From assembly GCA_016286365.1 (NCBI GenBank), contig JAEESN010000004.1:62001-126000 (forward strand): a stretch of DNA of 64,000 bases. The letters run 5' to 3'. The translations under genes and the position numbers were made by a program. The notes below the pieces were generated by a model that was not told where the DNA came from, searched no databases, and was given only the letters and a program-made list of their open reading frames with translations. Source of the stretch: Treponema sp. (GTDB taxonomy: Bacteria > Spirochaetota > Spirochaetia > Treponematales > Treponemataceae). Shown here in pieces: positions 24,296-28,605 of the stretch; position 1 is the stretch's first letter; each line of letters begins with the position of its first letter.

Positions 24296-26401
24296 ATGCA
24301 TAAGAATAGGAAAATATATGCTTTTCTCTTTTTCATTCTGATTCTTTTTTCTTTTACTTCCTGCAAAAATAAACAGAAAAGAATCTATCTTAATGATTCT
24401 CTTTTGTTTTTTGAGGCACCACCCTATCAGGAATTGCAACATATCCAGGACAACAAGGATTTTATAAAACTCACACCCGATGTTGCAGATGACCTTACAC
24501 ATGCCCTTGTAAATGAAAATGATTACATCTGGGTTAAATCAACTTTTACTTTAGATAAAAGCCTACAATACAAAGACTTAGCCTTATACATTGCTTTTCT
24601 CCGCTCTGCAGATACTGTATACCTTAACGGAAGTCTTCTTGGGACCTACGGAGGATTTCCTACAGAGGAATACAGCTCCGGATTTAAAGCCCATTATTAT
24701 CCGATTCAAAAAGAGCTCTTAAATCAGGAGGGCGAAAACATTATCTTTATAAAAATCTGGCCGGGTCCTCTTGGAGCAATCTCGAGTGACATTTTTATCG
24801 GCGATCCTAAAGATACTTATATGCTTTCTGAACTTAAAAGCTTTCTTAATTCCAAAATAAATCTGATTTTTTCCGGCGCCATGTTTTTTGTTTTTGTACT
24901 CTATTTTATCATGCATATCGGACTTAAAAAATTCTTTGACAATATTGAATACATAGTCTTTGCACTTTTGAACCTTTTTACGATTCTCTTCCTCTTTCCG
25001 TTCTATTCGATAGAACTTCCCTGGATTTACAACATTGGTATTCCATATCTCACGATTCTTAAGATCACAGTGTGCTCGGGCGCATTCATTACAATTTATT
25101 TTGCAAACTCATTTATAATTTCTTTCCTAAAATATCCGTGGAAAAAGCATATTGCAGAATTGCGAATTATTCTTCTTGCAATTCCACTCTTCTTTACATA
25201 CTTTATTCCGACCTACAGAAGACTTATTGATTTTATCCCTTTTATTACAGCCTTCGTTCTCCTCCAGTTCTGCTTTAGTATCCCGCTTATTGTAAAAGCA
25301 TTAAAGTCTCCTGAAAAAAAGGTTTATGCTTATCAGCTTCTGGGAGGATTTGCTCCTGTAATCTTCAGCATTGTTATTGATGTTCTGATACGCTTTGTAT
25401 TTAAAATCAAAGCCTTACCATACTTTACGTTATATGGCTGGCAGATAACAATAATTATATTCCTCTGTTACCTTGTTGTACGCTTTAATAACGCTTACTC
25501 AAAGAACGCTCTTTTAAAGACAAAGCTCGAAGAGTTTAATGCAAACCTCGAAGAAATTGTAACCGAAAGAACAAAAGAACTTTCAGATGCAAACTTTGTT
25601 TTAACACGCGGACTCGAAGCAGTTTCTAACGTTCAGAATAATTTTATTCCCAATCCCAAAAATCAGTATCCTGGATGGGAAATCACCGCTTCATATTCAA
25701 TCCTTACAGATAATGTTTCCGGCGATATTTATGATTACTACACAAAAAAATCTGAACTTAAGGGAATAGGACTTTTTGATGTTTCGGGTCACGGTATTCC
25801 TGCTGGTCTTATGACTATCCTTGCTAAAGGAATTATTTCGCAGCACTTTATGAATTCACTCGAAAACAAAGATTCTTTAACTGATGTAATGAATAAAATC
25901 AATGAATCTTACATCAAGGAAAAGGTAAACGTAGAAAACTATATCACAGGACTTTTGTTCCGCTTTAGTGAGATTTCCAAGAAAAATACCTGCGATGTAG
26001 AAATCGTAAATGCCGGTCATCCTCATCCTCTTTATTTTGATGCAAAAGCAAATGACATTACAGAAATTGTATATAAAAATCCGGAAGAACAGTATGGTAT
26101 GATTGGTGTTGAAGGATTGAATGTTTCTTTCCCTGTAACAACGATTAAATCTTCCCCTGATGATATTTTTGTTTTATTCACAGACGGACTTATAGAAGCC
26201 CATGATAATACAAAAGAACAGTTTGGAATTGAACGCGTAAAGAAAATTGTTAAGGCAAATAAAAACGCTTCTGCACAGAACATCCTCGATGCCATAAATA
26301 AAGGATTTACTACATTCCTTGATGGAGAGCCTGTTCATGATGATATTACTGTAATCGTTGCTAAAAGAAAAAAAGCTTCCGACTTTATAGAAGAACTATA
26401 A
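24296..26401 (+). CDS. 7TMR-DISM-type membrane sensor with a C-terminal SpoIIE-like PP2C phosphatase
   Basis: A 701-residue signalling protein. A signal peptide with a lipobox-like FTSC (Cys23) is followed by a periplasmic jelly-roll-like sensor domain (about 40-185, with VYLNGSLLGTYGGF), about seven transmembrane helices (190-400), a short coiled coil (405-435), and a PP2C phosphatase domain (about 450-697). The phosphatase metal-binding acidic residues are visible in SGDIYDY, FDVSGHGIP, FTDGLIEA and DDITVIV. Such proteins usually dephosphorylate anti-sigma-factor antagonists or related partners in response to an external cue. No STAS or anti-sigma kinase gene is nearby. The ligand is unknown. 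Confidence 0.88.
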   Translation: MHKNRKIYAFLFFILILFSFTSCKNKQKRIYLNDSLLFFEAPPYQELQHIQDNKDFIKLTPDVADDLTHALVNENDYIWVKSTFTLDKSLQYKDLALYIAFLRSADTVYLNGSLLGTYGGFPTEEYSSGFKAHYYPIQKELLNQEGENIIFIKIWPGPLGAISSDIFIGDPKDTYMLSELKSFLNSKINLIFSGAMFFVFVLYFIMHIGLKKFFDNIEYIVFALLNLFTILFLFPFYSIELPWIYNIGIPYLTILKITVCSGAFITIYFANSFIISFLKYPWKKHIAELRIILLAIPLFFTYFIPTYRRLIDFIPFITAFVLLQFCFSIPLIVKALKSPEKKVYAYQLLGGFAPVIFSIVIDVLIRFVFKIKALPYFTLYGWQITIIIFLCYLVVRFNNAYSKNALLKTKLEEFNANLEEIVTERTKELSDANFVLTRGLEAVSNVQNNFIPNPKNQYPGWEITASYSILTDNVSGDIYDYYTKKSELKGIGLFDVSGHGIPAGLMTILAKGIISQHFMNSLENKDSLTDVMNKINESYIKEKVNVENYITGLLFRFSEISKKNTCDVEIVNAGHPHPLYFDAKANDITEIVYKNPEEQYGMIGVEGLNVSFPVTTIKSSPDDIFVLFTDGLIEAHDNTKEQFGIERVKKIVKANKNASAQNILDAINKGFTTFLDGEPVHDDITVIVAKRKKASDFIEEL

Positions 26402-26459: not shown

Positions 26460-27479
26460 CTATCTCTGAATACGACCCGAGCCGTTTCCACCGGCAAGCT
26501 TTTCTACTTCATCTACGCTTACCATGTTGTAATCGCCTTCGATTGTATGTTTAAGACAACTTGCGGCTACTGCAAATTCAACAGCGTCCTGAGTTGATTT
26601 TCCGTTCAAAAGTGAATAGATTAATCCACCTCCAAAGCTGTCTCCGCCACCTACGCGATCAACAATGTACATCTCGTATTCTTTACTAAAGCAGTAATCC
26701 TTTCCGTCGTATAAAAGGGCTGCCCAGTTGTTACGGTTTGCATTGATTGATGTTCTGAGTGTGATTGCAACTTTTTTGAACCCGAATTTATCGGCAAGTT
26801 GTTTTGCAACAGATTTATAGCCTTCTTTGTTTAATTTTCCGCTGTTGATGTCTGTGTTTTCGGCTTCGATTCCAAATACATCTTTTGCATCTTCTTCGTT
26901 AGAAATACATACATCTACATACTTACAGATTTCTGTCATTGCCTTGCGAGCTTCTTCGCGGGTCCAGAGTTTTCCGCGGTAGTTTAAGTCGCAGCTTACT
27001 GTAGCACCTGCTTCTTTTGCAGCCTTACAAGCCTGAATACAGATTTCTACCAGGTTTCCGCCAAGGGCCGGAGTGATTCCTGTAAGATGGAACCATTTAC
27101 AGTCTTTGAATATTTCTTTCCAGTTAAAGTCTTCGGGTTTTGCTTCGGCAATTGCGGAGTGTGCACGGTCGTAAATACATTTAGAACCACGCTGGCTTGC
27201 TCCCCTTTCGTTATAATAGATTCCTACACGGTCTCCGCCACGAACGATGTACTGTGTGTTTACACCATAACGGCGGAGGCTGTTTACGGCTGCCTGACCT
27301 ATTTCGTGTTTTGGAAGCTTTGTAACGTAATAAGAATCAAGTCCGAAGTTTGCAAGGGAAACAGCAACGTTAGCCTCGCCTCCCCCGAATGTTGATGTCA
27401 TTTTATCCACCTGAACAAAGCGGAAGTATCCTTCCGGTTCAAGGCGGAGCATTATTTCGCCAAATGTAACAGTTTTCAT
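26460..27479 (-). CDS. kdgK: 2-keto-3-deoxygluconate kinase
   Basis: A 339-residue PfkB-family sugar kinase that phosphorylates 2-keto-3-deoxygluconate to KDPG. The N-terminal part has FGGGEANVAVSLANFG and the C-terminal catalytic motif is RVGGGDSFGGGLIYSL, with the catalytic Asp in GGGD. A good AAGGAAG ribosome site precedes the ATG. The assignment to KDG among PfkB kinases is supported by the hexuronate genes directly upstream in the same direction (KDPG aldolase, uxaC, uxuB). It is separated from the aldolase gene by a hairpin-rich gap of 487 bp, so it may be expressed partly on its own. Confidence 0.9.
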   Translation of the reverse strand: MKTVTFGEIMLRLEPEGYFRFVQVDKMTSTFGGGEANVAVSLANFGLDSYYVTKLPKHEIGQAAVNSLRRYGVNTQYIVRGGDRVGIYYNERGASQRGSKCIYDRAHSAIAEAKPEDFNWKEIFKDCKWFHLTGITPALGGNLVEICIQACKAAKEAGATVSCDLNYRGKLWTREEARKAMTEICKYVDVCISNEEDAKDVFGIEAENTDINSGKLNKEGYKSVAKQLADKFGFKKVAITLRTSINANRNNWAALLYDGKDYCFSKEYEMYIVDRVGGGDSFGGGLIYSLLNGKSTQDAVEFAVAASCLKHTIEGDYNMVSVDEVEKLAGGNGSGRIQR

Positions 27480-27506
27480 ATGTTCTTCCTTATATAAACT
27501 TATTTT

Positions 27507-27803
27507 CTTAAGGGAGGTCCCTTAAGGATCCCCTGTTTTATACATATTCTTTTTTTTAGGGAGGTCCCTAAAACCCCTTTTTTTAAATTTATTCTTTAGG
27601 GAAAGTCCCTAAAATCCTTTTTTTAAATCTATTTTTTAGGGGAGGGCCCCTAAAACCCTTTTTTTAAATTTATTCTTTAGGGGAGGACCCCTAAAACCCC
27701 CTTTTATTGGGAGAGGACACCCCCTCTACTTCGGAAGCGGAGGGTTTTCCTCTCCCAAACCCTCTTCTTCCCCGAGCACCGCTTAGGGGAATTTTCCCCT
27801 AAG
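27507..27803. repeat. Array of seven palindromic hairpin units, mainly of the TTTAGGGG...CCCCTAAA type
   Basis: Five units share arms of TTAGGGA or TTTAGGGG and their complements: 27507-27526, 27555-27572, 27595-27613, 27635-27654 and 27676-27695. The last four are each followed by a C-rich stretch, and most of these by a T run and AAATTTATTCT-like linker, giving spacings of about 40 bp. A larger stem follows, TTGGGAGAGGA (27707-27717) with TCCTCTCCCAA (27748-27758), and then CTTAGGGGAA/TTCCCCTAAG (27782-27803). Arms vary between copies but pairing is always kept, which points to selection for structure or a mobile palindrome family. With the second array this fills the gap between kdgK and the aldolase gene; no gene lies in it. 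Confidence 0.85.
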
Positions 27804-27840
27804 AACCCCTTTTTAAATGGGGATTGGTTGGCTGGCGTAT

Positions 27841-27954
27841 TGGACGGCTTATGATTCCATAAGCGTCCAGATTTATTTTTATAGGACGGCTTAAGCAGAG
27901 CTTAAGCGTCCAAAATCTTTTTTGGGGGACGGCTTAAGCGGGGCTTAAGCGTCC
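27841..27954. repeat. Three GGACGGCTTAAGC-type palindromic units
   Basis: Units at 27841-27869, 27884-27911 and 27927-27954. The left arm is GGACGGCTTAAGC (TGGACGGCTTATG in the first), and the right arm GCTTAAGCGTCC pairs with it, leaving one G bulged at the same place in each. In the first unit both arms changed together (TTATG with CATAA). Loops are 3-4 nt. Confidence 0.85.
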
Positions 27955-27966
27955 TGTAGTTTTCTT

Positions 27967-28605
27967 CTAGCCTCTTATTTCTTTTACTATTCCTGAAGCT
28001 TCTCGGGTCAGGCGTTCGATTTCGGCGAAGTTTCCGGAAGTTATGAGGTCGGATTTTACCATCCAGCTGCCGCCGCAGGCAAGGATTTTGGTGCAGGAAA
28101 GATAGTCGCGGACGTTCTGGGGGTTTATGCCGCCGGTGGGCATAAAGAGCATTTTGGTATAGGGAGCGCTCATGGCTTTTATCATTTTAAGGCCGCCGGC
28201 GTTTTCGGCTGGGAAGAATTTTACTACTTCTAAACCGTAATCAAGAGCCATTTCGAGTTCTGTCGGAGTCATGATGCCGGGGGTAATCGGGTAGTTTTTC
28301 TTGAGGCAGTATTCTACTACTTTTGGATTAAAGCCAGGGCTTACTATAAATTTTGCACCTGCTCCTACTGCTCTTTTTACCTGTTCTACAGATAAAACTG
28401 TTCCGGCTCCGGTAAGCATGTTTGGAAACTCTTTTGAGATAATACGGATGCTTTCTTCGGCTGCATCTGTCCTGAAGGTTACTTCGGCACAGGGAAGTCC
28501 GCCATTTACAAGACTTTGTGCAAGCGGTTTTGCATCATCTGCTTTATTCAAAACTACAACAGGGACAATCCCGGTTGAGCCTATCTGTTTAAGTACATCA
28601 TTCAT
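27967..28605 (-). CDS. eda: 2-keto-3-deoxy-6-phosphogluconate aldolase
   Basis: A 212-residue class I aldolase that cleaves KDPG to pyruvate and glyceraldehyde-3-phosphate. The active-site pieces are visible: AEVTFRTD (Glu and Arg), the TGAGTVL strand, FIVSPGFNP, and the Schiff-base Lys in VVKFFPAEN, followed by MPTGGI for phosphate binding. An AGAGG ribosome site precedes the ATG. It lies 19 nt after uxaC in the hexuronate operon. Confidence 0.94.
   Translation of the reverse strand: MNDVLKQIGSTGIVPVVVLNKADDAKPLAQSLVNGGLPCAEVTFRTDAAEESIRIISKEFPNMLTGAGTVLSVEQVKRAVGAGAKFIVSPGFNPKVVEYCLKKNYPITPGIMTPTELEMALDYGLEVVKFFPAENAGGLKMIKAMSAPYTKMLFMPTGGINPQNVRDYLSCTKILACGGSWMVKSDLITSGNFAEIERLTREASGIVKEIRG

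Follow-up and report, generated by a model that had tools for sequence, protein, structure and literature searches.

Ten hairpins fill the kdgA–kdgK gap

What has placed a block of ten hairpins between two neighboring genes of one sugar pathway, and do these structures act in the mRNA? The window, the whole 64,000-nt stretch of a gut Treponema sp. analyzed here (GCA_016286365.1, JAEESN010000004.1:62,001-126,000, forward strand) and the reference for all coordinates, encodes both genes on its minus strand, separated by a gap of 487 nt (490 by the alignment measure applied to relatives). The upstream gene, kdgA (27967-28605), is an ORF with an above-cut-off NCBIfam match to KDPG/KHG aldolase, and further upstream lie genes for glucuronate isomerase and a relative of fructuronate reductase. 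The downstream gene (26460-27479), preceded by the Shine–Dalgarno sequence AAGGAAG (27485-27491), was assigned by ORF and NCBIfam as a kdgK-type 2-keto-3-deoxygluconate kinase; NCBIfam matches it best to a KDPG aldolase/kinase fusion model, in the kinase half of that model, and the KDG kinase families score below cut-off. These assignments confirm a sequence-only reading of this DNA, which had placed kdgK and a KDPG aldolase gene on either side of the array. One NCBIfam KDPG aldolase/sugar kinase fusion model covers both proteins (26460-28605), KdgK by one half and KdgA by the other, which fits the tight coupling of both genes in relatives.

The array of about ten hairpins that had been read at 27507-27954 is present there with all of its features, and comprises six hairpins of type A, three of type B, and one long hairpin, all annotated on the minus strand. 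Type A consists of A1 (CTTAAGGG/CCCTTAAG, 27507-27526), A2 (TTTTAGGG/CCCTAAAA, 27554-27573), A3 (TTTAGGG/CCCTAAA, 27595-27613), A4 (TTTTAGGGG/CCCCTAAAA, 27634-27655), A5 (27676-27695), and A6 (CTTAGGGG/CCCCTAAG, 27782-27803), and the long hairpin (TTGGGAGAGG.../...CCTCTCCCAA, −31.8 kcal/mol) spans 27707-27758. Hairpins B1 (27842-27868), B2 (27884-27911), and B3 (27927-27954) carry one bulged base each. The spacing is 40–47 bp for A1–A5, with a period of 40–41 bp from A2 to A5, and 42–43 bp for family B. Compensating changes between family A copies are found as described, both in CTTAAGGG/CCCTTAAG versus TTTTAGGG/CCCTAAAA and in GGG/CCC versus GGGG/CCCC. Family B likewise retains its bulged G in all three copies and shows a paired change, TTATG/CATAA in B1 versus TTAAGC/GCTTAA.

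With loops of 2–8 nt allowed, perfect stems of 8 bp or longer number eight in the gap, compared with a mean of 0.16 and a maximum of 2 in 300 dinucleotide shuffles, and their density is 16.4/kb versus 0.09/kb in the remaining window. Folding the gap in both directions, a check that the sequence-only reading had proposed, gave z = −6.2 for the minus strand and −6.0 for the plus strand. The same reading had taken the paired changes as a sign of selection for RNA structure. This is plausible, but template switching during replication also creates and repairs perfect hairpins (PMC8794818), so compensating changes alone do not prove RNA selection.

A kissing-hairpin core element

A covariance model (R1) recognizes one discrete element of ≈100 nt within the gap, at 27707-27809 on the minus strand, which is the mRNA strand (99 bits, E = 2.4e-21). 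This core element, present as a single copy in its own genome, consists of a hairpin P1 (A6 above), a purine-rich linker, and a long hairpin P2 (27707-27758), the loop of which pairs with the 3 nt that follow P1; P1 and P2 are both identified by covariation. In the window, the contact joins CGG just after P1 (27779-27781, minus strand) to CCG in the P2 loop (27732-27734, minus strand), both positions again identified by covariation. Hairpin A5 adjoins the core element as a tail hairpin. The aligned copies follow a common plan, which on the mRNA strand gives P1 as GGGGTTCTTAGGG-loop-CCCTAAG, followed by three variable nucleotides, TGCTGGG, and the linker, and the P2 loop as GCTT-CNN-A-GTAGAGG. 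Within the near family, GTGC, GC-TC, and GTAG-GG are strictly conserved. The edges of the element are sharp, and the flanks of different copies are unrelated.

In alignment A3, which takes in some weaker opposite-strand matches, 97.3% of the helix cells are paired versus 76.0% after shuffling, 320 cells are double-changed versus 91, and the covariation score is 0.611 versus 0.223 (a value as high arose in 0 of 500 shuffles). Controls in which the pairing partner was slid scored at most 0.193, a slide by a single column being sufficient to abolish the signal. Alignment A1, restricted to direct copies, shows compensation in 19 of 28 pairs; the copies being related, such covariation counts are not counts of independent events. 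At the loop contact, pairing holds for 198 of 206 variable positions across 103 distinct copies, as opposed to 137 (maximum 153) in 5000 shuffles. The pairs are CCG/CGG (44), CGG/CCG (33), TCG/CGA (10), CAG/CTG (4), and GCG/CGC (2), counts that are inflated by orthologous sites and related genomes. Divergent relatives with differing neighboring sequence again show CAG/CTG, CGG/CCG, and TCG/CGA contacts.

The core element combines compensatory covariation in its helices with a tertiary contact, as expected of a structured RNA, and a covarying contact of this type is known from few intergenic repeats. Template switching, which repairs stems, does not explain a loop contact between separate structural parts, and in this respect it can be told apart from selection as a source of compensating changes.

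The core element is dispersed among treponemes

A blastn search with the whole gap matched 55 of 200 congeners. Almost all of the alignments fall on query positions 150–300, which correspond to the central ≈100 nt and the hairpin after it. By covariance model search, the core element occurs in 83 of 196 congeneric genomes, with copy numbers from 1 to at least 21, and at least 21 in five of them; genome-wide counts here come from pattern and model searches. Other genera of the family hold divergent copies (≈40–70 bits), as do a few other spirochetes, single-contig genomes included, and a pattern scan of named genomes returned matches only in records labeled Treponema or wider spirochete groups. 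That a dispersed structured repeat family exists, across a bacterial family with both oral and gut treponemes among its members, is well supported; that it acts at the mRNA level, and how it spreads, we infer. A 2017 motif survey is reportedly the source of another treponeme RNA, TD-2; our literature search, confined to the terms tried and to works other than that survey, found no description of the core element, and the family is apparently undescribed.

The arms of the hairpins are distributed otherwise. A pattern search of the own 2.68-Mb genome found no occurrence of the A motif, TTAGGG-N3-8-CCCTAA, outside the gap, and the B motif occurs neither elsewhere in this genome nor in any other congener searched. 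The sequence-only reading was right to suppose that a repeated palindrome family is involved, but it is neither A nor B, both of which are confined to the gap in their own genome, an outcome that satisfies one part of the refutation which that reading had set itself. The part that does recur is the central element at 27707-27809, which had not been separated from the rest of the array.

In other species, tail hairpins of the GGGGTTTTAGGGG...CCCCTAAGGA type follow the core element, and the type A hairpins are similar to them. Up to three stand in a row in G116 and five in the own genome. We infer that family A represents tail hairpins of the core element amplified by tandem duplication, and that family B arose as a private local amplification in which tandem duplication brought an unrelated hairpin to three copies. 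In G221 and G099 (L111, L113, L139, L140, L144), a further palindrome, AAAACTCGTTAAGCAAGG..CGCCTTGCGA, lies directly upstream of several copies, suggesting composite repeats.

Copies favor the mRNA sense and gene starts

Between co-directional genes, with orthologous sites grouped, 23 sites carry the element in sense and 4 in antisense orientation (p = 3e-4). Within 75 nt of the element, a start codon with a Shine–Dalgarno sequence occurs in 39 of 144 cases on the sense side and, mirrored, in 6 of 132 on the antisense side (p = 2e-7), and seven divergent copies end 14–20 nt before a start codon. Many copies have no start nearby, and about one-quarter are not sense to the downstream gene. The picture is of a strongly preserved fold, oriented with the mRNA and often placed just before the start of a gene. 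The bias in orientation and the nearness to start codons favor an element that is transcribed from one strand. Sites before kdgK, serA, and the genes for a fumarate-reductase-like flavoprotein and a [2Fe-2S]-type protein recur in several species, and the downstream genes showed no functional theme or common pathway. The flanking genes are ordinary ones, with no recurring transposase among them.

In an operon that encodes the [2Fe-2S]-like protein and the fumarate-reductase-like flavoprotein (L061, L062, L065, L054–L058), the element occupies one junction, the other, or both, depending on the species. The site in this operon is empty in G216 and filled in G065, and in G110 two successive junctions carry the element.

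Comparison with known repeats and RNAs

Like the REP/BIME elements associated with RAYT in enterobacteria and pseudomonads, the core element is a short, dispersed palindromic repeat that is found between genes or within operons, probably read in mRNA, and sometimes in arrays; unlike them, it is longer (≈100 nt) and has two hairpins with a loop contact. The Y1/RAYT transposase domain PF01797 was absent from 10 of 20 copy-rich genomes and present in 3 of 15 others, all counts being from draft genomes. We reject mobilization by a RAYT, as PF01797 is lacking in half of the copy-rich genomes and the RAYT-like gene of the own genome lies amid another palindrome. That gene (L080, G000:C29:76646-76969), a 281-aa frame and the only Y1/RAYT-like transposase of its genome, is found among palindromes of the GAGGGCTGTCCCCCTTGTC type, probably its own REP family.

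The BOX, RUP, and SPRITE repeats of pneumococcus (PMC3049150) are set apart, by features rather than by sequence comparison, in that the core element has no terminal inverted repeats or target-site duplication. C/GGGGTTC at its left end does not complement CTCCCAA at its right end, which rejects a miniature inverted-repeat transposable element with terminal inverted repeats, and the left-edge 5-mer is found again in 14 of 105 copies no more than 65 nt from the right edge, compared with a shuffled mean of 10.7 and a maximum of 20. Neither a transposase nor an integrase was linked to the core element, and searches of phages and plasmids gave no match. In viral contigs, one pattern had no match and another had one match, which the covariance model did not confirm. 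The attC sites of Treponema integrons (PMC3607928) share with the core element a structured form, a length of 63–132 bp, an extruded G, and multiple copies in treponemes; the core element, however, is dispersed singly and not in cassette arrays, and we reject its identity with attC since inspection of its ends revealed no AAC/GTT R-box triplets as defined in PMC3607928.

Rfam gave no match above the gathering threshold on the window or over the element in 10 copy-bearing loci, and weak matches such as Guanidine-II (20 bits versus a threshold of 32) were rejected. TD-2 RNA (RF03162, clan CL00124) is also a multi-hairpin RNA, of 98 model positions, and occurs in some of the same treponeme genomes, but it differs from the core element in sequence and helix layout. 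The two are not identical, the TD-2 matches in the divergent loci L311, L312, and L316 falling at positions other than those of the core copies. These TD-2 copies (L311:736-836, L312:1665-1763, L316:770-866) lie ≈1 kb or less from copies of the core element.

The kdgA–kdgK junction across relatives

The gap between kdgA and kdgK measures 5–19 nt in G001, G003, G010, G015, G026, G029, G033, and G034 and 102–615 nt in other relatives. The core element is also found at this junction in G014, G139, G158, and G209, and unrelated repeats are found there in G005, G009, G019, and G025. The presence of unrelated repeats at the same place in G005 and G009 makes the junction a recurrent landing site, in line with the nested insertion site that the sequence-only reading had listed among its options. 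Relatives with empty and filled sites at one junction, such as G003 (empty) and G139 (filled), provide natural before-and-after pairs; the kdgA tree is weakly resolved, and these states are compatible with gain or loss. The repeats in G005 and G009 (L017, L021) are of the GTCATT...CGGACTTGA and GAGTTCGGAATGAC types. In G025 and G019 (L010, L014), the junction holds long imperfect palindromes flanked by inverted repeats of the TAGGTGC/GGGGATAG type.

Origin and function of the hairpin block

The best explanation, to which we give about an even chance, is a gap built stepwise from the element and amplified hairpins, with the resulting structures acting in the kdgA–kdgK mRNA. Comparison shows that the two genes either once stood or, in many close relatives, still stand nearly adjacent, and that a dispersed element of ≈100 nt lies between them in this lineage. 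The element has a preserved fold (P1, purine-rich linker, P2, and the 3-bp contact), lies preferentially in the mRNA sense, and would spread as a nonautonomous repeat. Tandem duplication may then have multiplied its tail hairpin about five times toward kdgK, giving family A, and an unrelated hairpin three times toward kdgA, giving family B, with stems kept perfect by replication template switching, selection, or both. After transcription has started, the structures would decouple translation of kdgK, which has its own Shine–Dalgarno sequence, from that of kdgA, and the RNA block may stabilize the upstream part, tune downstream translation, or do both. BIME/REP and BOX elements are thought to stabilize upstream mRNA and/or tune downstream translation, and by analogy the core element would work most like these. 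It speaks against this explanation that copy number runs from 0 to at least 21 among congeners and that about one-quarter of copies are not sense to the downstream gene, a pattern unlike that of an essential regulator. If the core element does act on mRNA, it would constitute a portable module that rewires operons.

The strict conservation in the near family, the preserved loop contact, the strong sense bias, the seven divergent copies placed 14–20 nt ahead of a Shine–Dalgarno-preceded ATG, and the recurrence before the same genes in several species could also indicate a riboswitch-like cis-regulatory RNA, a reading that we regard as a tentative possibility. A global signal would cause P2 and the loop contact to form or open and thereby gate the nearby Shine–Dalgarno sequence, and the multi-copy spread would place many unrelated genes under one signal. 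Such an RNA would be an undescribed regulatory class in spirochetes, kissing hairpins before the Shine–Dalgarno sequence that spread in the manner of repeats and bring genes under one post-transcriptional control, and in this wider form, too, we consider it rather doubtful. The lack of a common pathway among downstream genes, the many copies distant from starts, and the gain or loss of copies between close relatives speak against it.

The stems themselves bear on whether the repeat is functional at all. Nearly all stem pairs are Watson–Crick, with G-U pairs in 26 of 2681 cells (≈1%) and A-C mismatches in 10. The low G-U share is less than we would expect for a constraint on RNA alone and leans toward DNA-level repair, and the excess of G-U over A-C (26:10) leans toward strand-specific selection; both may be at work. 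A functionless, selfish palindromic repeat with stems perfected by template switching (quasipalindrome correction) would account for the Watson–Crick stems, given that template switching is an established source of perfect hairpins and also maintains them (PMC8794818), and would suit the large swings in copy number among congeners and the tandem A and B amplification private to the own genome. We consider this explanation unlikely, as it leaves unexplained the covariation of a 3-nt contact between separate parts, the sense bias, and the excess of G-U over A-C.

That the hairpins are transcription terminators, as the sequence-only reading had suggested, or attenuators between kdgA and kdgK is highly improbable: 27300-28100 contains eight terminator-like patterns versus 1.8 expected, but every one in the gap is on the plus strand, and on the mRNA (minus) strand no stem is followed by a T run. 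On the plus strand, at 27554-27665, three A hairpins are closely trailed by a T run (CCCTTTTTTT type), where antisense transcripts from the plus-strand gene ending at 26401 could stop.
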